Assembly (NCBI GenBank): GCA_900470775.1
Contig: UCBZ01000012.1
Span: 1 to 64,000 of the forward strand
Reading direction: 5' to 3'
Length of the DNA: 64,000 nt
Source of the DNA: Hyphomicrobiales bacterium
GTDB lineage: Bacteria; Pseudomonadota; Alphaproteobacteria; Rhizobiales; Beijerinckiaceae
Shown: piece after piece, positions 1,014-11,853 of the stretch
Layout: each line of letters starts with the position of its first letter
Position numbering within the stretch: position 1 is the stretch's first letter
Translations under genes and position numbers: made by a program
Notes under the pieces: generated by a model
What the model was told of the DNA's origin: nothing
What the model saw: only the letters and a program-made list of their open reading frames with translations
Database searches by the model: none

Positions 1014-2182
1014 GCGGTGGTCTCCATGGCTTGAGAGACGGCAATGAGCGCAGCATCCGTGCCGCGCCCGCCGATGATGGAAAGCCCGACCGGCGCTCCA
1101 TCCACCATGGCTCCGGGGATGCTCACCTGCGGCGAGCCGGTGAGGCCGCCCTGCGCGCACAGGCAGCTGATCTGGTCGCGCAACGGCTGCAGCACGGGCA
1201 AGCTCAGGCCGCGTTTCGGGGCAGGGAAGGGGGTGGTCGGCAGGCACAGGATCGTGCCCGGCGGCAGCAGGTGACGTAGCCTCGCACGCGCCTCCTGCCG
1301 CATCAGCGCAGCCCAGTTGCGCTCCGCCACCGGCATCTGTGCCCCGACAAGCAGCGCGGCGACGACACTGAACGCCATGCGCGGATTGGCGCTCTCGACC
1401 CAGGGCTGGAAGGTCTGCCAGGCTTCGACCGGCTGCAGCGTGCGCTGGGCTCTCGCCCAGACGGAAAGGCCCTGCGGTGCCATGATCTCCTCGCGGACAT
1501 CGCCGACGATCCGCCCGAGGCGTTCGACCATGGGCTTCAAAGCCTCGGCAACCTCCGGATCGGCGAAGCCGAAGGCATCGACGGCGACGAGAAGCGTCGT
1601 CGGCAGCGGGCCGGGCGCCTCGCCCAACATCACCGTCGAGACTTTGGCGAAGGTCTGCGCATCGCGCGCGAACCAGCCCGTCGTGTCGGAGCTCGGCGCC
1701 TGCGGCAGCATACCGGCCACATTAACGCGGCCATGGGTCGGGCGGATGCCGTAGAGCCCGCAGAAGCTCGCCGGCACGCGCACAGAGCCGCCGGTATCGG
1801 TGCCGAGCGCGGTATCGCAAATCCCGGCCGCCACCGCCGCCGCCGACCCCGAAGACGAGCCGCCCGGCACGCGGCCGGGCGCGGCTGTGTTGGTCGGCGT
1901 GCCGTCGAACGCGTTCTCGCCGAGGATGCCGAGCGAGACCTCGTCGGTGATGGTCTTGCCGATCAGCTCGGCCCCCGCATCGAGCAGGGTCTGGACCGCG
2001 AAAGCGTGGCGGTCCGGCACGGGATTGAACTTGGCCCAGTCATGGTTGCCGCCGCCGGTGGGCACGCCCGCGACGTCGAACAGATCCTTGGCCGCGAAGC
2101 TCAGCCCCGCAAGAGGCCCGCCGGATCGGCCGGGAAGCCGAACCCGCGGCCCGGGCACGAAGGCATTGACGACATCATCCAT
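1010..2182 (-). CDS. Amidase signature enzyme
   Basis: A 390-residue amidase of the GatA/fatty-acid-amide-hydrolase class. The Ser-cisSer-Lys triad is intact: Lys in the SFAAKDLFD segment near residue 30, the cis-Ser in GGSSSGSAAAVAAG, and the nucleophile in GTDTGGSVRVPAS. It is shorter than typical 450-480-residue members, mainly through a reduced C-terminal half, as in AtzE-like and allophanate-hydrolase-like enzymes. ATG at 2182 is preferred; an in-frame GTG two codons upstream is possible. It is the first gene of a two-gene operon with the AtzH-like protein. The substrate cannot be read from sequence; a small amide or ureido compound is likely. Confidence 0.88.
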   Translation of the reverse strand: MDDVVNAFVPGPRVRLPGRSGGPLAGLSFAAKDLFDVAGVPTGGGNHDWAKFNPVPDRHAFAVQTLLDAGAELIGKTITDEVSLGILGENAFDGTPTNTAAPGRVPGGSSSGSAAAVAAGICDTALGTDTGGSVRVPASFCGLYGIRPTHGRVNVAGMLPQAPSSDTTGWFARDAQTFAKVSTVMLGEAPGPLPTTLLVAVDAFGFADPEVAEALKPMVERLGRIVGDVREEIMAPQGLSVWARAQRTLQPVEAWQTFQPWVESANPRMAFSVVAALLVGAQMPVAERNWAALMRQEARARLRHLLPPGTILCLPTTPFPAPKRGLSLPVLQPLRDQISCLCAQGGLTGSPQVSIPGAMVDGAPVGLSIIGGRGTDAALIAVSQAMETTA

Positions 2183-2372
2183 GGTCACTCTCGATCATTC
2201 GTTCGCAAGAATCCGCTGCCGCGCAGGATGTCAGCGCACCGACCATATGTCGCCGCCATGTGGATGATAATGCGCGTCGCCGCTTGGCCCGACGAACAAC
2301 AACGCTGGGGCTGGCGGGTTGCCGACGATGGAGGCCGGTGCACTACTGACAGGCTCGGCAAAGGAGGAAACG

Positions 2373-3908
2373 ATGGTCGCAACGACGCCCGCAACAACCA
2401 CGAAAGCCGGAACCGCAATCGCGGCCGCCCTCATCTCATGGGCCGTGGCGGCTCCCGCCAGCGCGCAGACGCCGCCAAGGCACGACGAATTCTACTGGAT
2501 CGGCCAGATCAACAAGGCCAGCACCGTCATCAACAGCGAGGAAGGCCTGCTCGACCCCGCGCTGGCGCCACGGATCGCGGCCGGGCTCGACACCATGCTC
2601 AAGGCAGCCGAAAAGCCCGGTGCGAAGCGGCCGACGCTGGTCATCACCTTCGAGCCGCTGCTGATCGAGGCGGCCGGCGTCGAGGCGACGCTGCTCCATG
2701 CCGGGCGCTCCAGCCAGGACATGCTGGCGACGGTGCGTGCCGCGATCATGCGCGACGGTTTGCTGCGGCTTGCCGGGCAACTGCGCCGGCTGAACGCGAC
2801 GATGGTCGCGCTCGCCGAGAAGCATGTCGGCACCATCGTGCCGAATTACACCAACGGCGTCGCCGCCCAGCCCAACAGCTATGGCCATTACCTGCTCGGC
2901 CATGTCGCGGGCCTGGAGCGCGATGCCCAGCGCCTGCAGGAAGCCTATGCGCGGCTCGACCGTTCGCCGATGGGCACGACGGTTTTGAACGGCTCGAGCT
3001 GGCCTTTGAACCGCGACCGCATGGCCAGCTATCTCGGCTTCGCCGAGAAGATCGACAACGCCTATGACGCAGCGCAGATCACGGCCACCGAGATGCCGGT
3101 CGAGATCGGCGCGCTGACCACCAGCATCGCCCTGCATGCCGGCGCCTTCGTCGAGGACGTCATGACCCAGTATGCGCAACCGCGCCCCTGGATCCTGCTG
3201 ACAGAGGGCGACGGCAACACCTATGTCTCGAGCGCCATGCCGCAGAAACGCAATCCCGGCCTGCTCAATTCCACGCGCAGCCAGGCCTCATCCGTGATCG
3301 GGCTCGGCATGGGCCGCATCCTGCAGGCGCACAACATTCCGCCCGGCATGAGCGACGCCAAGTCCGTCCGCGACAATGCAGCCGTCATCGCCGAGACCGG
3401 CGCAATGCTGGAGAGCTGGAACAAGATCCTGTCCGCGCTGGTGATCGACCCCAAGCGGGCGCTGGAAGAGCTCAACAACGACTGGACCGCTTCCCAGGAA
3501 CTCGCCGACGTGCTGATGGCGAAATACAAGCTGCCCTTCCGCGTCGGGCACCATTTTGCCTCCGAGATCGTCGACTACGCCAAGACGAACGATATCCGGC
3601 CGACCGATTTTCCCTATGCGGAGGCGCAGCGCATCTATCGCCGGACGCTCAGCGAGATGAAGGTCAGTGGCGGTGAGCTCCCGGTCAGCGAGGCCGAGTT
3701 CCGCGCCACGCTCGATCCGGTCGCGATCATCCGCAACCGCGCCACCGTCGGCGGCCCCCAGCCGGCCGAAATGACGCGGATGCTCGCCGCCGCGAAGCAG
3801 ACGCTGGCGCGTCAGGAGGAGTGGATCAAGCAGCGCCGTGAGCGCATCGACGGCGCGCTGGCCGGGCTCGATCGCGATTTCGCGAAGGTTCTGGCCCGTG
3901 CAAACTGA
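2373..3908 (+). CDS. Exported argininosuccinate-lyase-like protein (aspartase/fumarase superfamily)
   Basis: A 511-residue protein. The start at 2373 is set by a strong AAAGGAGG five bases upstream and because it opens a clear signal peptide (hydrophobic stretch ending AAPASAQ, about residue 32). The mature part resembles argininosuccinate lyase: region 2 (YTNGVAAQPN, about residues 159-168) and the flexible-loop signature SSAMPQKRNP (about 286-295). Region 2 normally reads YTHLQ.AQP with a catalytic His; here His is replaced by Asn, while the loop serine is kept. Export and the altered residue argue against a role in arginine synthesis. It may cleave another C-N bond in the periplasm, or only bind ligand. 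No operon partner is visible. Confidence 0.8.
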   Translation: MVATTPATTTKAGTAIAAALISWAVAAPASAQTPPRHDEFYWIGQINKASTVINSEEGLLDPALAPRIAAGLDTMLKAAEKPGAKRPTLVITFEPLLIEAAGVEATLLHAGRSSQDMLATVRAAIMRDGLLRLAGQLRRLNATMVALAEKHVGTIVPNYTNGVAAQPNSYGHYLLGHVAGLERDAQRLQEAYARLDRSPMGTTVLNGSSWPLNRDRMASYLGFAEKIDNAYDAAQITATEMPVEIGALTTSIALHAGAFVEDVMTQYAQPRPWILLTEGDGNTYVSSAMPQKRNPGLLNSTRSQASSVIGLGMGRILQAHNIPPGMSDAKSVRDNAAVIAETGAMLESWNKILSALVIDPKRALEELNNDWTASQELADVLMAKYKLPFRVGHHFASEIVDYAKTNDIRPTDFPYAEAQRIYRRTLSEMKVSGGELPVSEAEFRATLDPVAIIRNRATVGGPQPAEMTRMLAAAKQTLARQEEWIKQRRERIDGALAGLDRDFAKVLARAN

Positions 3909-5295: not shown

Positions 5296-6306
5296 GTGCC
5301 GCATCCTCCCCTGCATATCGACTTCCTGAACGCGCTCGATGTCGAGGCGCTGAAACTCACCGATGCGGAAATCATTGCCGCTGTCGAGGCAGGACTTGCC
5401 GCCCAGGGGCAAAAGGCGACCGAGATCGAGCCGCGCGTCCACCTGATGCCGAAGGCGGGCGCGAACGGTCATTTCAACGTGCTGCGCGGCGCCTTCCGCG
5501 CGCCGATCAACCGGGCCGGCGTCAAGGTGATCGGCGACTTCGTCGACAACTACAAGCTCGGCCTGCCCTCGGAGATGGGCCTGCTCCTGCTGATGGACCC
5601 GCTGACCGGCGTGCCCACTGCGATCGTCGATGGCAGTCACCTCACCGATATGCGCACCGGCGCAATCACCGCGATCGGCGCCAAATATCTCGCCCGTAAG
5701 GGCTCCAGGGTGCTCGGCCACGTCGGCGCGCGCGGCACGGCCTACTGGAATGTCCGCCTGCTCGATTCCCTGTTCGATTTCGACGAGATCCGCGTTCATT
5801 CGCGCCGGCCGGAAAGCCGCGACGCCTTCGGCGCGAGGCTCTCCGCCGATCTCGGCAAGCGCGTGGTTGTGACCGATGACTGGCGCTCCTGCGTGGAAGG
5901 CGCTGACATCGTTGTCGAGGCCTCGCGGCTGAACGCGCCCGAGCCGATGCTCAGGACGGAATGGATCAAGCCGGGTGCCTTCGTCGTACCCTATGGCACG
6001 ATGAGCGCGGTCGAGTTGTCGCTGACCGACATCATGAGCAAGCTCGTTGTCGACGATTGGGGCCAGTGCAAGGGTGGTCCCTTCGGCTCGCTGCGGGCGC
6101 ATGTCGAGGCCGGCAAGCTCTCCGAAGAGACGCTGCACGCCGAGATGGGCGAGATCGTCGCGGGGCTGAAACCCGGCCGCGAAAACGAGAACGAGACCAT
6201 CCTGTTTTGGCATCGCGGCCTCTCGCTCTCGGACATCGCGCTCGGGCATTTCATGCTGGAGAAGGCCAAGACCATGGGCCTCGGCCAGCGGCTGCGCTAC
6301 GCGTGA
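5296..6306 (+). CDS. Ornithine cyclodeaminase / mu-crystallin family protein
   Basis: A 336-residue NAD(P)-dependent enzyme of the ornithine cyclodeaminase/mu-crystallin family. Visible signatures are VKVIGDFVDNYKLGLPSEMG, the DGSHLTDMRTGA motif (about residues 113-124) and a Rossmann glycine motif GHVGARGTA, followed by EIRVHSRRPESRDAF. The GTG at 5296 gives the expected N-terminus (HIDFLNALDVEALKLTDAEI); longer frames upstream have no family similarity. Members include ornithine cyclodeaminases, imine reductases and alanine or tauropine-type dehydrogenases, so the substrate is open. It overlaps the next gene by four bases (GTGA), implying a joint function with a PhnD-like ligand-binding protein. 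Confidence 0.88.
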   Translation: MPHPPLHIDFLNALDVEALKLTDAEIIAAVEAGLAAQGQKATEIEPRVHLMPKAGANGHFNVLRGAFRAPINRAGVKVIGDFVDNYKLGLPSEMGLLLLMDPLTGVPTAIVDGSHLTDMRTGAITAIGAKYLARKGSRVLGHVGARGTAYWNVRLLDSLFDFDEIRVHSRRPESRDAFGARLSADLGKRVVVTDDWRSCVEGADIVVEASRLNAPEPMLRTEWIKPGAFVVPYGTMSAVELSLTDIMSKLVVDDWGQCKGGPFGSLRAHVEAGKLSEETLHAEMGEIVAGLKPGRENENETILFWHRGLSLSDIALGHFMLEKAKTMGLGQRLRYA

Positions 6307-7106
6307 GCCTGATCGCCAATGCGCGGATGTATGCCGTCGACGCCGCGACGGCAGCAATGTGGTCAGCCCTGTTTGCGCGGATCTCGGCGCTGAGCGGGGT
6401 TCCGCTCGAGGTGATCGCCCATGCCGCGCTGGCGCCGTTGGAGGACCTCTGGCGCCGCGACGATCTCGGCCTCGCCTTCATCTGCGGCTATCCCTTCGCC
6501 GGCGGCTCGTTTCCGGTCAGGCCGGTCGCGGTGCCGATCCCGGCGTCGGGCGATGGCCGGCCGGTCTATGCGAGCCATCTCGTGGTGCGGGCCGATAGCA
6601 CCACCGAGACGCTTGAGGATAGCTTCGGCAAGCGCATCGGCTGGACGGTTGAGCATTCGCAATCGGGCTTCAACGCCGTCAGGACGCATCTGCTCGAAAC
6701 CTGGCGGGAGCGGGGGCCGCTCTATGCACAGAGCATCGGCCCGCTGCTGACGCCGCGCCGGATCATCGACGCGCTGCTCACCGACCAGATCGACATCGGC
6801 CCGCTCGACTCCTATTTCCTCGATTTGCTGCTGATCGCCGAGCCTGAGACGGCCGCCCGCCTGCGCATCGTCGCGACGACAGCGCCCCGGCCGATGCCGC
6901 TGCTGGTGGCCTCGCGAGGGATCGACGAGAAAACCGTCGCCAGTCTGCAAGCGACTCTTCTCAATGCGGAAAACGACATCGGCACGCGCGACATCCTCGC
7001 TCGCCTGCGGTTGTCAGGATTCGCAATGCCCGATCCGGCCACCTATCGCGTGCTGCTGGATGAGGCGGAGGCCGCCGATCGCGCGGGCTATCGTCAGCCT
7101 GGCTGA
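6303..7106 (+). CDS. PhnD/NMT1-like substrate-binding-fold protein without signal peptide
   Basis: A 267-residue protein resembling periplasmic phosphate/phosphonate-binding (PhnD-like) proteins: an initial strand with YAVDAATAAMWSALF, a central RIGWTVEHSQSGFNAVR segment (the usual lobe-crossing serine region) and PRRIIDALLTDQIDIGPLDSYF. The start is the GTG at 6303, overlapping the TGA of the cyclodeaminase-family gene. No signal peptide is visible, although the fold normally belongs to exported transporter subunits. It may therefore be a cytoplasmic ligand sensor or a solute-binding domain recruited as an enzyme partner. No cognate permease lies beside it on this strand. Confidence 0.75.
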   Translation: MSLIANARMYAVDAATAAMWSALFARISALSGVPLEVIAHAALAPLEDLWRRDDLGLAFICGYPFAGGSFPVRPVAVPIPASGDGRPVYASHLVVRADSTTETLEDSFGKRIGWTVEHSQSGFNAVRTHLLETWRERGPLYAQSIGPLLTPRRIIDALLTDQIDIGPLDSYFLDLLLIAEPETAARLRIVATTAPRPMPLLVASRGIDEKTVASLQATLLNAENDIGTRDILARLRLSGFAMPDPATYRVLLDEAEAADRAGYRQPG

Positions 7107-7133
7107 CGCGGCAAGGTGGCTTCGGAAACACTC

Positions 7134-7178
7134 CGTCATCCCGGACAAGTCGCGCAGCGACGCCGCTCCGGGATGACG
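7134..7178. repeat. Dispersed intergenic palindromic repeat, copy 1
   Basis: Inverted arms CGTCATCCCGGA (7134-7145) and TCCGGGATGACG (7167-7178) enclose a second small stem (GTCGC/GCGAC). It lies between the convergent PhnD-like gene and the ABC ATPase gene. The outer CGTCAT...ATGACG ends match the elements at 41.9, 54.5 and 57.0 kb. It could also act as a bidirectional transcription stop. Confidence 0.75.
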
Positions 7179-7189
7179 TCGAGGATCTG

Positions 7190-8146
7190 TCACGCAACGG
7201 GCGCGCCACCCGCGCTCCGCGCGCGGATCGCCGCCAGCGTGATCTGGCCGAGCGCACTCCCGTCCTCAGCCACGATCGTCGCGGCGTCGCGCCCTTCGGC
7301 GAGCAACGCCGACAATATCCCCCGCACCGAAAGCGAGCCCGAAAGCGTGAAGCCGTCGCTGGCTTCGCCCGGTTCGACCGCATCAGTCGCCTGTACCAGC
7401 GAAAGCCTCCGTAGCGCTCGGTCCGCGCCGACGAAATCCGCCACGAACTCGTTGGCAGGCGAAGCCAGGAGCCGGTCGGGCGTGTCGTACTGTACGAGCG
7501 TCCCATCCTTCATGATCGCGACAACGTCGCCCATGCGGATGGCCTCGTCGATATCATGCGTCACCAGGATCACCGTCTTCTTCAGGCGCTTCAGGATGGC
7601 GAGGAACTCCTCCTGCAACCGCCCGCGCACGATCGGATCGACGGCCCCGAAAGGCTCGTCCATCAGCATCACCGGCGGGTCGGCGGCGAGCGCGCGCGCC
7701 ACGCCGACGCGCTGGCGCTGCCCACCCGAGAGATGCCGAGGGTAGCGCGAGAGGTAGAGCCTGGGATCGAGGCCGACGAGGTCCAGCATCTCTTCAGCTC
7801 GCGCCTTGATCTTCTGCGACTCCCAGCCGAGCAGCTTCGGCACGGTCGCGACGTTCTGCGCGATCGTCATATGCGGGAACAGGCCGATCTGCTGGATGAC
7901 GTAGCCGATATGGCGCCTGAGCTCGACCGGATCGGCCTTGGTCACATCGCGGTCGCCGACATAGATGGCCCCCGATGTCGGCTCGATCAGCCGGTTGACC
8001 ATCCGCATCGTCGTGGTCTTGCCGCAGCCGGACGGGCCGATCAGTACGCAGACCTGGCCCTTCTCGATCGTCAGGTCGAGCGCATCCACGGCGGGCCTGA
8101 CCACACCCGGGAACAGCTTGGTGACCTTTTCCAGCCGGATCGTCAT
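7190..8146 (-). CDS. Osmoprotectant/betaine-type ABC transporter, ATP-binding subunit
   Basis: A 318-residue ATPase of the OpuCA/ProV group. Walker A is GPSGCGKTT (about 36-44), the signature is LSGGQRQRVGVARA and Walker B is VMLMDEPFGAVDP. ProV-type enzymes usually carry two C-terminal CBS domains that sense ionic strength; here only one degraded CBS-like segment (about 255-310) remains, so osmotic gating may be weak. It is the last gene of the operon and its ATG overlaps the end of the upstream permease by four bases. With the two permeases and the binding protein it completes an importer for a quaternary-ammonium compound. Confidence 0.92.
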   Translation of the reverse strand: MTIRLEKVTKLFPGVVRPAVDALDLTIEKGQVCVLIGPSGCGKTTTMRMVNRLIEPTSGAIYVGDRDVTKADPVELRRHIGYVIQQIGLFPHMTIAQNVATVPKLLGWESQKIKARAEEMLDLVGLDPRLYLSRYPRHLSGGQRQRVGVARALAADPPVMLMDEPFGAVDPIVRGRLQEEFLAILKRLKKTVILVTHDIDEAIRMGDVVAIMKDGTLVQYDTPDRLLASPANEFVADFVGADRALRRLSLVQATDAVEPGEASDGFTLSGSLSVRGILSALLAEGRDAATIVAEDGSALGQITLAAIRARSAGGAPVA

Positions 8147-8778
8147 GACGCTCCCATCCGCAACTGCCGTGTCATCAAGCGCTCGATCCCGGCAAAGGCG
8201 ACCTCGACCGCAAGCGCGAGCAGCGCGACCGCGACCGCGCCTGCGATCAGTTGCGGGAAGTTGAAATTCGCCATGCCGGCCGTGATCAGTTCGCCCAAGC
8301 CCCCGCCGCCGATGAAAGCGGCGAGCGTCGCCGCCGAGACGATCTGCACGGCGGCCGTGCGGATGCCGGCGAAGATCACTGGCAGCGCCAGCGGGATCTC
8401 GATGCGCGTCATCACCTGCGCGTCGGAAAAGCCCTGTCCGCGCGCCGCCTCGACGATGTCGGCATCGACCTCGGTCAGGCCCGTATAGGTGTTCAGGAGC
8501 AAAGCCGGCAGGCCGTAGAGCGTCAGCGCCACGACCGAGGGCAGGAAGCCTGTGCCGAGCAGCGGCAGCATGATCACCAGCAGCGCCAGCGACGGCACGG
8601 TGCGCAGGATGTTGACGATCGCGATGGCCGCATTGGCGAAACCGCGATGGCGGGTCAGCAGGAGGCCGAGCGGCAGGGCGATCAGCAACACGGCGGCGAG
8701 CGCCACGCCCGCCAGCCAGAGATGGTTCTGCAGCGCGACGATGAAGATCGAGGGGTTGGCGGAAATCCAGGCGGCCAT
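8143..8778 (-). CDS. Osmoprotectant/betaine-type ABC transporter permease
   Basis: A 211-residue inner-membrane subunit of the OpuCB/OpuCD (ProW-like) type with about six hydrophobic segments. The EAA loop that contacts the ATPase is visible as EAARGQGFSDAQVMTRIEIPLALP (split over about residues 112-135). The membrane core IGGGGLGELI near residue 165 is typical. It overlaps its neighbours on both sides (one base with the upstream permease, four with the ATPase gene), so stoichiometric translation is expected. The two permeases probably form a heterodimer. Confidence 0.9.
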   Translation of the reverse strand: MAAWISANPSIFIVALQNHLWLAGVALAAVLLIALPLGLLLTRHRGFANAAIAIVNILRTVPSLALLVIMLPLLGTGFLPSVVALTLYGLPALLLNTYTGLTEVDADIVEAARGQGFSDAQVMTRIEIPLALPVIFAGIRTAAVQIVSAATLAAFIGGGGLGELITAGMANFNFPQLIAGAVAVALLALAVEVAFAGIERLMTRQLRMGAS

Positions 8779-9407
8779 CAGGCGGTCTCCGCCTGGTTGG
8801 CGCGCAGGCGCAGCTCGACCCGGCGCAGGCTCTCGTCGCAGAGGATCGCCAGCGCCGATGTCACGACCGCACCGGCCACGACCTTCTCGCCGAAATCCTG
8901 GGTGATGCCCTGGAAGATGATGTCGCCGAGCCCGCCGGCATTGATGAAGGCGGCGACGGTGGCGACCGAGACCTGCGTGACGACGGTGATGCGGATACCG
9001 GCGATGATCACCGGCAGCGCCAGCGGCAATTCGATGGCAAAGAGCCGGCGCCAGCGGCCATAGCCCATGCCGTCGGCCGCATCGAGGATATCGGGCGAAA
9101 TCTCCTGCAGGCCCGTCGCGACATTGCGGATGATGATCAGCAGCGCATAGGCGACGAGCGCGACGATCGCCGGCCAGAAGCCGAGGCCGAGATAGGGGAT
9201 CAGCAGCGCGAAGATCGCCAGCGCCGGGATGGTATAAAGCGCTCCGGAAACCAGCAGCACGATAAGCGCAAAACCCGGCCGCCGCGCCGAGAGCACACCG
9301 AGCGGCAGACCGATCGCGAGCGCGATGGCCAGGCCGACGCCGACGAGCTGGATATGCTCCCAGAGCGCGATCAGCAGACGGTCGTAATTCTCGATCGTCC
9401 AGCTCAT
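8778..9407 (-). CDS. Osmoprotectant/betaine-type ABC transporter permease
   Basis: A 209-residue permease paralogous to the one that follows. The EAA loop reads DAADGMGYGRWRRLFAIE followed by LPLALPVI. The segment AFINAGGLGDIIFQG corresponds to the conserved cytoplasmic loop of OpuCB-type subunits. Its ATG at 9407 overlaps the stop of the lyase gene by four bases, so the lyase lies physically inside the transporter operon rather than beside it. Specificity is set by the binding protein and cannot be read from this subunit. Confidence 0.9.
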   Translation of the reverse strand: MSWTIENYDRLLIALWEHIQLVGVGLAIALAIGLPLGVLSARRPGFALIVLLVSGALYTIPALAIFALLIPYLGLGFWPAIVALVAYALLIIIRNVATGLQEISPDILDAADGMGYGRWRRLFAIELPLALPVIIAGIRITVVTQVSVATVAAFINAGGLGDIIFQGITQDFGEKVVAGAVVTSALAILCDESLRRVELRLRANQAETA

Positions 9408-10972
9408 GGCGCCGAGCCTTCGCCGGGCGCCATCTCGGCCAGGATCAGTTCGCCGGCCTCGAGCGCCAGCGCCAACGCCTCGTATTCGCGCCCCATCGGC
9501 CTATCGTCGTCGAGGCGGGCGACATGGCTGCGCACGAGGGCATGGGCGGCGGCCGTTCCGCGTCCCAACCTGATCGCGCCGCGCAGATCGACGGCTTCGG
9601 CCGCCACCACCAGTTCGATCGCGGCCAGCCGCGTCAGGCGCCTCGCGATGGCATGGGTCTTCTCGATAACCGCCGGCGTCATCGGCGCATAATCCTCGAC
9701 ACCGTCTGCGACCGGCAGCGTCATGGCGCCCAGCGGCAAAGCGAGATGGCGGATCTCGGCCTCGAGCGCGGCCACCGTCTTCTGCGAGGTCGCGAAGCCC
9801 GAATGCGAGCCGCCATGGCGGGTCAGGAAACGCGGCAGATCGCTCATCGCGGGCGACATCAGCTTGACGATGCGCGCCGCCGAAATCGCAGCCATGTACG
9901 ACAACGCAAGTCCGGCCGCCTCAAATGCCAAGGCCAGTTCGGTCGTGTCGAAATTCACGCTGGAGAGCATGGCGTCGCGCTCGACCAGCACGGCCGGGCT
10001 GTCGCAGATGCTGGCAAGCTCTGCCTCCACGGCAGCCCGCGCGGCCGCGACGGCCCGCGAGGCATGGCCGGCGACCGGAGCGAGACAGCGAAAGGACAGG
10101 GGGTCCTGAACCCTGCGCGCCGTGCCCGTCTCGAACAGGTCGCTGCCGGCGAGAAGCCGGCGCAGCCAGTCGACGCCCGTGCCATGAGCCGGCATACCCC
10201 GCATCGTGGCGAGATCGCGGTCCAGCGGCGAGAGGTTGGCGCGAAATGCTTCCAGCGCGAGCGCCCCTGCGACGACGCTGGCCTGCAACGCCTTGCTCAA
10301 TGCGTCCGCCGCCAGCGCCGCCAGCCCGACGCCCTGCGAATTGGCATTGAGCAGCGCCAGCCCGTCCTTGGGGCCAAGCTCCGGCAGGGCGATACCGGCT
10401 GCCGCCATCGCCTCGCCGCCGGGCAAGATGTCGCCGCCAAACTCGGCCTCGCCCGCGCCGATCAGCGGCAGGAAGGCCTGCGCCAGCGGGCTGAGATCGG
10501 CCTCGCCGAGCGAGCCGATCCCCCGGATCACTGGATGAACGCCGGCATTGAGCATGGCGGCGATCGTCTGCGCCAGCGCCGGCGACAGTCCCGAGGCGCT
10601 GTGGCAGATGCTCACAAGCCGCGCGAACAGCAGCGCGCGGACTGCCTCGGTCTTTAGCGGTTCGCCGACGCCGACGGCTCGTGCGCGGATGGCGCGGGCC
10701 TGAAAGGCAGGAATCGCATCGTTCGCAAGCCGCGTATCGACGGCGGCGCCCAGGCCCGTCGTCAGGCCATAGATGCTGTCGCCGCGTTCGAGCGCGCGCA
10801 GCACCACAGCGCGCGCAGCCCGCAGGCGCGGATCGACGGAGTCGTCCAGCATGACCGGTGCGAAGGCGCGCGCGACCGCGACCACCGCCTCGATGCCGAC
10901 AGCCTCGCCGCCGACAACGATCGTGACGGCAGGCCTGCCAGCGTCCGGTGCCGGCGCGGCTTGCGCGGTCAG
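9404..10972 (-). CDS. Histidine-ammonia-lyase-fold enzyme lacking the MIO triad; candidate aromatic-betaine (ergothionase-like) lyase
   Basis: About 522 residues of the HAL/PAL fold. Seen: YGLTTG (HAL Tyr53 region), GVGEPL, LALLNANSQ (Asn195 region), DPLSFRC (Arg283 kept, Tyr280 replaced by Leu), SVNFDTTE (Phe329 region) and GVEDYAPM (Glu414 kept). The MIO-forming segment, GSVGASGDLAPLAH in HAL, reads GSLGEADLSPLAQ, so Ala-Ser-Gly is absent; the HAL His83 position is Arg. Ammonia cannot then be activated in the usual way. A trimethylammonium group would leave without MIO, and the gene sits inside a betaine-type ABC operon, so elimination of trimethylamine from ergothioneine, hercynine or a similar betaine is a reasonable inference. 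Start: a CTG at 10972 overlaps the previous TGA (CTGA) with AAGGGA upstream. A GTG at 10885 would cut off the conserved VVAVAR region. Confidence 0.8.
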   Translation of the reverse strand: MTAQAAPAPDAGRPAVTIVVGGEAVGIEAVVAVARAFAPVMLDDSVDPRLRAARAVVLRALERGDSIYGLTTGLGAAVDTRLANDAIPAFQARAIRARAVGVGEPLKTEAVRALLFARLVSICHSASGLSPALAQTIAAMLNAGVHPVIRGIGSLGEADLSPLAQAFLPLIGAGEAEFGGDILPGGEAMAAAGIALPELGPKDGLALLNANSQGVGLAALAADALSKALQASVVAGALALEAFRANLSPLDRDLATMRGMPAHGTGVDWLRRLLAGSDLFETGTARRVQDPLSFRCLAPVAGHASRAVAAARAAVEAELASICDSPAVLVERDAMLSSVNFDTTELALAFEAAGLALSYMAAISAARIVKLMSPAMSDLPRFLTRHGGSHSGFATSQKTVAALEAEIRHLALPLGAMTLPVADGVEDYAPMTPAVIEKTHAIARRLTRLAAIELVVAAEAVDLRGAIRLGRGTAAAHALVRSHVARLDDDRPMGREYEALALALEAGELILAEMAPGEGSAP

Positions 10973-11853
10973 TTCAGCAATCCCTTGGCCTTCAGGAAGG
11001 TGGCAGCCACGGTGCGCGGCTCCTTCTTGTCGACCTCGACCTGCCGGTTGAGTTCCTGCATCGTCGGGTTGTCGAGCGCGGCGCCGACCTTCTCCAGCAC
11101 GGCGACGATCTTCGCGTTGGCGGCGATCTCGGGGCGCACAACCGGCGCCAGGAAATAGGGCGGGAACAGTGCCTTGTCGTCGTCGAGCGCGACGAACTTC
11201 TCGGCGGCGATCTGCCAGTCGGTCGAGAAGCCGTTGGCGACCTCGATCTGCTTCTGGTTCAGCGCCTCGTAGCGCAGCCGCAGCGCCGCGAACTGCTTGA
11301 ACTCGGCGAATTGCGCGCCATAGACCTCCTTGAGCCCGGCGATGCCGTCGCGGCGATCGACGAATTCGGTGCCGGCGCCGAGCCGCAGCTTCGACGAGGC
11401 CTTGCCGAGATCGCTCAGGGTCTTGAGGTTGAATTCCTTCGCGGTTTCGGGCCGCACCACGATCGCATAACCGTTGTTGATGCCCGACGGCTTCAGCCAG
11501 GTCAGGTTGAATTCCTTCTCGTAGAAGGCCTTGACCATGCCGCGCACCTTCTCGGGGTCGGTCTCGGTCACGCCTTGCGCCTTCATCACGGCGTTGAGGC
11601 CAGTGCCGGTGTATTCCGGATAGAGGTCGATCGCGCCGCTCTTCAGCGCCTCATGGGCGACCAGTGTGCCGCCGAGATTGATCTTGCGCTCGACCTTGAA
11701 GCCGGCGGCTTCCAGCGCCGCGCCATAGAGTTCCGCGACGACGAACTGCTCGGTGAAGTTCTTCGAGCCGATCTTGATGGTCTGGGCCGAAGCAGCGGAG
11801 AGGCTGGTCGCCACCATCGCGGCAGCCGCAAAGACCGTTTGGAGGAGGCGCAT
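10969..11853 (-). CDS. Osmoprotectant/betaine-type ABC transporter substrate-binding protein
   Basis: A 294-residue periplasmic protein and first gene of the five-gene operon. The signal peptide ends ATSLSAASAQ (about residue 24). The mature protein opens with TIKIGSKNFTEQFVVAELYG and has AIDLYPEYTGTGLNAV, both diagnostic of OpuCC/OsmF/YehZ-type (OpuAC Pfam) binding proteins, whose ligand sits in a cage of aromatic residues. The same family includes the ergothioneine-binding EgtU of some bacteria. The operon order binding protein, lyase, permease, permease, ATPase suggests that whatever is imported is the lyase substrate. Confidence 0.92.
   Translation of the reverse strand: MRLLQTVFAAAAMVATSLSAASAQTIKIGSKNFTEQFVVAELYGAALEAAGFKVERKINLGGTLVAHEALKSGAIDLYPEYTGTGLNAVMKAQGVTETDPEKVRGMVKAFYEKEFNLTWLKPSGINNGYAIVVRPETAKEFNLKTLSDLGKASSKLRLGAGTEFVDRRDGIAGLKEVYGAQFAEFKQFAALRLRYEALNQKQIEVANGFSTDWQIAAEKFVALDDDKALFPPYFLAPVVRPEIAANAKIVAVLEKVGAALDNPTMQELNRQVEVDKKEPRTVAATFLKAKGLLN

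Follow-up and report, generated by a model that had tools for sequence, protein, structure and literature searches.

A predicted exported subfamily of argininosuccinate-lyase-like proteins that lacks the catalytic His-Glu pair

The gene at 2373-3908 of the window (the whole 64,000-nucleotide stretch of DNA that was analysed) belongs to a group of proteins marked by a YTNGV motif that, judged from sequence, is a new subfamily of a known superfamily, predicted to be exported and devoid of the His-Glu pair. Members of the aspartase/fumarase superfamily are usually taken to be cytoplasmic and to work with a serine base and a histidine acid. From the sequence, its conservation across the family, the predicted fold and a contrast in gene context, we infer that the window protein is probably a periplasmic fumarate-releasing lyase, a living enzyme acting on a substrate with another leaving group. 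The YTNGV family is widespread and uncharacterised, and if this reading holds, a fumarate-releasing step would be placed outside the inner membrane.

The gene and its altered active site

The open reading frame starts with ATG at 2373 and its stop codon ends at 3908, giving a product of 511 residues. An earlier note on this DNA had called an argininosuccinate-lyase (ASL) homologue here, and Pfam agrees, with matches to Lyase_1 (E 3.9e-25, 89.3 bits versus a gathering score of 27) and ASL_C2 (E 1.9e-8, above its gathering score). None of the 14 NCBIfam matches passed its cut-off, including argH (TIGR00838, 182 bits versus 279.5), the coenzyme M enzyme XcbC (NF052535, 186.2 bits versus 575) and nitrosuccinate lyase (NF052556, 26.7 bits versus 650). 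The gene stands alone between an amidase gene upstream (PRK08310 above cut-off) and an L,D-transpeptidase gene downstream, both on the opposite strand. Paralogues in the same genome are 26-30% identical to it; the two that were aligned (L002 and L003) have His at the acid place, and L003, a second ArgH-like gene, carries FTHLQSAQP. The features of the window gene are as follows.

2361..2367, plus strand: ribosome-binding site AAGGAGG, read from the sequence just 5' of the ATG at 2373
2373..3908, plus strand: gene for the predicted exported YTNGV-type lyase (Lyase_1 and ASL_C2), 511 aa, from the open reading frame, Pfam, alignment and model
2373..2465, plus strand: residues 1-31 as a putative signal peptide cut after ASA, judged by eye, with a leader in orthologues and low pLDDT in the model
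2697..2720, plus strand: HAGRSSQD, residues 109-116, substrate-binding motif (HTGRSRND in ASL), from alignment and conservation
2853..2855, plus strand: codon AAC for Asn161, which replaces the catalytic His, from sequence and alignments
3228..3257, plus strand: loop SSAMPQKRNP, residues 286-295, with Ser286 the presumed base and Lys292 and Asn294 presumed to bind carboxylate, roles carried over from CreD as given in extracts of PMC13411527
3267..3269, plus strand: Asn299, four residues past the loop Pro, where the His-Glu pair is presumed to have its Glu, from alignments
3348..3362, plus strand: Met326-Ser-Asp-Ala-Lys330, clade-specific, aligned with the stretch around Tyr320 of EDDS lyase

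We found the SSAMPQKRNP signature that the earlier note had described, as well as the replacement of the catalytic His that it had reported. The segment YTN161GVAAQP aligns without gaps with YTHLQ.AQP of the E. coli, Thermus and duck ASLs, leaving Asn161 rather than a His in the catalytic column, and this column holds Asn in all 93 homology-selected sequences (93 of 100 after removal of duplicates, window lyase included). Asn161 is therefore neither chance nor a sequencing error but a family-wide trait. We also assembled 138 unique members by the YTNGV motif, a set in which counting Asn161 would be circular, unlike in the homology-picked 93. Ser286, Lys292, Asn294, His109, Gln115, Asp116 and Gly296 are invariant in this set (138/138), and Ser287 and Met326 are kept in 136 and 137 members, respectively. 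At the fourth residue after the loop Pro, which we take to be where the His-Glu pair has its Glu, these members hold Asn (121), Ile (13) or Val (4), and the eight aligned His-bearing paralogues all hold Glu. With Asn161 and no Glu at this place, both halves of the pair are gone. Sequence comparison also marks a lyase of a Bordetella petrii genome (L117 in genome G066, 1480-3006, minus strand), which has Trp and Met in these two positions, as a second ASL-like line without His and Glu.

By sequence, Asn161 is the same change as in the dead H162N mutant of delta 2 crystallin, which the title of PDB entry 1DCN describes as inactive with argininosuccinate bound. This mutant, which holds a ligand it cannot turn over, lends some weight to the earlier note's suggestion of a binding protein derived from an enzyme, here a catalytically dead derivative that would bind a succinyl compound in the periplasm as receptor or scavenger. 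Export of the kind seen in binding proteins would suit such a role, and one remote member (L253) is immediately preceded by what looks by eye like a gene for a Bug-type receptor. However, a dead binder would have no use for an invariant base Ser286 and loop Lys292 and Asn294 (138/138), copies without a signal pair with a transporter gene as an enzyme would (see below), and a working relative without the catalytic His, CreD, is described in extracts of PMC13411527. We consider the dead binder rather improbable, and it fits less well than a lyase. The same conserved residues and the same relative uphold the lyase half of the earlier note's other proposal, a periplasmic lyase using another acid; as for the acid itself, a leaving group that needs none is as likely.

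The putative export signal and the signal-less gut members

The N-terminus of the window lyase, MVATTPATTTKAGTAIAAALISWAVAAPASA followed by Q after the cleavage site, reads by eye as a Sec-type signal peptide. Sequence evidence favours the earlier note's prediction of export, and as a family-wide trait: orthologues retain a hydrophobic leader despite divergent letters, and of the 101 sequences classed as exported on that leader, 93 show a loose AxA pattern after it. YTNGV members come in two kinds, with a hydrophobic leader ahead of the core or with none; four class labels were set by hand (L171, L183 and L184 as cytoplasmic, L049 as exported). The existence of signal-less members raises the question of a wrong start codon or a non-working signal, which would leave the window protein in the cytoplasm. 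We regard this as very unlikely, given the strong Shine-Dalgarno site ahead of the ATG at 2373, the hydrophobicity that orthologue leaders keep while their letters change, and the nearest possible start in 31 of the 37 rows classed as cytoplasmic, which lies only 6-14 residues before the core Trp.

A first tree of 72 rows placed the signal-less gut members at the base, suggesting gain of the signal. This suggestion was undone by a second tree (52 rows), to which 13 sequences of two remoter branches were added, both with leader-bearing members by eye and all 13 labelled as exported by eye; here exported members were basal. A gain is accordingly not claimed, and it is more likely, as far as these sequences tell, that export is ancestral and was lost several times.

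A phrase search of the literature found no paper on a periplasmic or exported argininosuccinate lyase. Table 2 of a Tat paper on A. xylosoxidans, as extracted from PMC11533796, gives three periplasmic argininosuccinate lyases, and we rejected it as proof of export because its accessions are not tied to sequences and its authors report cytosolic contamination in all samples. The A. xylosoxidans genome (G061) has four Lyase_1 matches, one of the YTNGV family and one with a leader, so at most one of the three listed proteins should be the YTNGV lyase, and two or more of the periplasmic labels in that table are probably wrong.

All signal-less YTNGV members that we found come from the Turicimonas muris family, in which 36 of 61 genomes carry one to six members (E <=1e-70) and whose named members here are gut genera. 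A gene for a DcuC carrier lies within 4 kb, as far as flank was available, of 29/34 signal-less members compared to 0/97 exported members, and within 300 bp on the same strand of 20/34 compared to 0/97; these counts require 1 kb or more of flank, which leaves out 7 of the 138, and their rows are related, so that a Fisher value is not a fair probability. Within the gut family the 4-kb comparison gave 29/34 signal-less versus 0/9 exported members (four of the nine with less than 1.5 kb of flank), and exported members outside it gave 0/88. The remaining five signal-less members have no DcuC gene in the available flank. NCBIfam calls one of the adjoining carriers DcuC above cut-off, and with 5-20 DcuC genes per genome in six genomes we reckoned chance adjacency at about 2-8%. 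L179 and L195, two signal-less members that group within or next to exported ones, have DcuC 108 and 67 bases away, and the 20 loci from the two remoter branches gave no DcuC match. Read simply, a lyase working inside the cell is accompanied by its own carrier and a lyase working outside is not. This pairing of signal-less lyase and DcuC supports an active enzyme whose substrate or product resembles a C4-dicarboxylate.

Other gene arrangements were seen in gut genomes. Six loci (L202, L186, L187, L188, L198 and L151) show an operon of DcuC-like carrier, amidohydrolase, porin, YTNGVQ lyase and MFS transporter. Beside one exported gut member lie genes for a type II asparaginase and, two genes on, a flavocytochrome c-like flavoprotein (L205, 2983-4038 and 7124-9319). 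Periplasmic flavoproteins or asparaginase beside some exported gut members are a weak clue because flavoproteins are numerous there, with 6-13 FMN_bind matches per genome in four gut genomes.

Predicted fold and candidate chemistry

The earlier note had proposed structure prediction as a check, and the model obtained (monomer, 54-row alignment, mean pLDDT 91.5) has the predicted fold of the aspartase/fumarase superfamily. Ten-residue blocks below pLDDT 70 are confined to the leader (residues 1-30 at 54-60) and residues 321-330. Among solved structures, four EDDS lyase entries match it best (Foldseek E 1.2e-24; 6g3e VIA Z 39.9 over 461 residues at 22% identity), followed by ASL and delta crystallins. 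With ArgH and delta crystallin (TIGR00838) the window lyase shares the fold (Z 31-36), the ASL_C2 domain and the HxGRS and SS.MPQK.NP motifs at 23-26% identity, whereas ArgH has the His-Glu pair and no leader peptide and its family cut-off is not reached.

In the mechanism we propose, the HAGRSSQD and SSxMPQK.NP motifs would hold a 2-substituted succinate, from which Ser286 of the mobile loop would abstract the beta-proton. The substituent would then depart without the His-Glu pair lost across the subfamily, and fumarate would be freed in the periplasm, to enter the cell by ordinary C4-dicarboxylate uptake. The window genome has 27 DctP matches and no match to the DctA or DcuC families. Our best lead for the leaving group is a thiol or sulfide, followed by an amine that is already protonated, as in EDDS lyase.

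The amine option corresponds to a special case of the periplasmic fumarate-releasing lyase, an EDDS-type C-N lyase acting on N-substituted aspartates, from which an amine leaving already protonated would, on chemical grounds, need no acid. EDDS lyase (PDB 6g3d/6g3e) is the nearest solved fold by the model, has the SS.MPQK.NP loop and likewise lacks His at the acid place. It differs in having Gln where the window lyase has Asn161 and in keeping the Glu that the YTNGV family lost; in the tree it falls with the outgroup, apart from the YTNGV family; and by alignment its Asp290 and Tyr320, positions engineered according to the title of entry 6rx8, correspond to Gly296 (138/138) and Met326 (137/138). 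We view a C-N lyase as a serious but unlikely contender.

A periplasmic nitrosuccinate lyase is a further alternative, with CreD as the known enzyme to compare. Extracts of PMC13411527 (2026) propose SSxMPxKRNP as the loop of nitrating enzymes, a consensus that the window loop SSAMPQKRNP fits, and compared by description CreD shares this loop and the absent His with the window lyase. His109 and Asp116 fit H118 and D125 of the CreD fingerprint E49/H118/D125/H253/R341 by spacing. Against this, the place of Arg341, essential in CreD according to the same extracts, seems to be Met326 when traced via Tyr322 of MtASL, in a lid alignment that is unsure, so that a catalytic Arg is apparently missing, and the nitrosuccinate-lyase score is far below its cut-off (26.7 bits, given above). 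This alternative is accordingly very improbable. The same extracts name the need for leaving-group protonation as unresolved; an exported subfamily free of the His-Glu pair, with signal-less counterparts beside DcuC, offers a natural test of it.

As for what the putative fumarate-releasing lyase of the window acts on, C-S compounds are the most promising lead, though an unproven one. Table 3 of PMC5373536, as extracted, lists the 'Putative argininosuccinate lyase' MIM_c16970 as 6.4-fold up on mercaptosuccinate versus succinate and 3.5-fold higher on mercaptosuccinate than on 3,3'-dithiodipropionate, with DctP 8.1-fold up in the same table; stress proteins and porins also rise in these data. 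Deletion of msdo, encoding the dioxygenase Msdo, abolishes growth of Advenella on mercaptosuccinate in the same source, so the lyase alone is not enough for such growth. A remoter exported YTNGV lyase in genome G176 appears to match MIM_c16970 of Advenella mimigardefordensis. The order of the G176 msdo cluster fits A. mimigardefordensis, with the rhodanese and ABC ATPase confirmed and the cupin, which has no Pfam match, judged by eye; its M48 and FAH genes agree with MIM_c16530 and MIM_c16690, and the M48-to-msdo spacing predicts tag 1698.4 for the YTNGV lyase versus 1697. The G176 lyase has a leader by eye and the motif YTNGVQAMP, and a cysteine synthase A gene (386.5 bits versus a cysK cut-off of 350.95) lies just upstream on the same strand. 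This pair recurs in 5 of 20 remoter-branch loci, all close relatives (89-100% identical). The Advenella lyase belongs to another branch than the window lyase, and members of the Advenella branch share 42-48% identity with the A. xylosoxidans orthologue.

In its fullest form, the sulfur reading holds that the YTNGV family consists of periplasmic C-S lyases that cleave mercaptosuccinate or similar S-succinates to fumarate plus sulfide or a thiol, that the His-Glu pair was lost because no acid is required when sulfur is the leaving group, and that gut relatives moved the reaction to the cytoplasm with a DcuC carrier, comparable to the pairing of aspartase with a Dcu carrier in E. coli. We put this forward tentatively, as a specific scheme that is unlikely to be right in every part. 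Were it true, the family would be a candidate for the sulfide elimination from mercaptosuccinate reported for Rhodopseudomonas BB1. S-(2-succino) lyase (2SL) offers a parallel, compared by description, as a class I lyase that cleaves a C-S bond to fumarate (PMC9706529); the terms periplasm and histidine are absent from the main text of that paper as extracted.

Distribution and gene neighbourhood

The subfamily occurs in alpha- and betaproteobacteria. An orthologue scoring above 700 bits is present in 29 of 61 genomes of the same genus, and the nearest named relative, from Bosea sp. OK403, is 84% identical. We collected 80 loci (of 90 relatives found) from Bosea, Roseomonas and kin, Methylobacterium, Paracoccus, Aureimonas, Achromobacter, Bordetella, Cupriavidus, Variovorax, Turicimonas and Duodenibacillus. 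Matches at E <=1e-120, remoter branches included, occur in 93 of 268 genomes of the A. xylosoxidans family, and A. xylosoxidans and Variovorax (examined in members other than V. paradoxus) carry the YTNGV family. The lyase is also found on 14 plasmid records, 11 of which call the gene argininosuccinate lyase or lyase family protein and three of which list no gene there; under such annotation the family is hidden.

Relatives of the window gene's neighbours are scarce at the 80 orthologue loci: amidase at 3, ABC ATPase (a generic kind) at 14, each permease at 2, HutH-like lyase at 2, binding protein at 1 and transpeptidase at none. Crude clustering of flanking reading frames gave largest clusters in 24, 20 and 19 loci, whose distance and strand varied, while others recur within Achromobacter only, and no operon common to several genera was seen in this clustering. 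Seven annotated plasmid loci differ in gene content, and an eighth (L142) has no annotation. Because its neighbours are not conserved, context says nothing direct about the window lyase, and we set aside the amidase, the L,D-transpeptidase and the OpuC/HutH-like cluster as clues to function. With them falls the earlier note's hint of betaine substrates, which rested on the adjacent ABC transporter cluster.

Frames of 712-953 residues were considered as fusion proteins and rejected, being upstream read-through of the frame in the cases read except L188. There, porin and lyase share a single 875-residue frame, close relatives have two genes, and the fusion is not trusted.

The window at 5296-11853 holds an ornithine-cyclodeaminase-like gene and a gene resembling a substrate-binding protein; the opposite strand carries an OpuC-type ABC transporter, an OpuAC receptor and a HutH-like aromatic amino acid lyase (334 bits versus a hutH cut-off of 539). 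This region could serve to degrade a histidine betaine, for example ergothioneine or hercynine.
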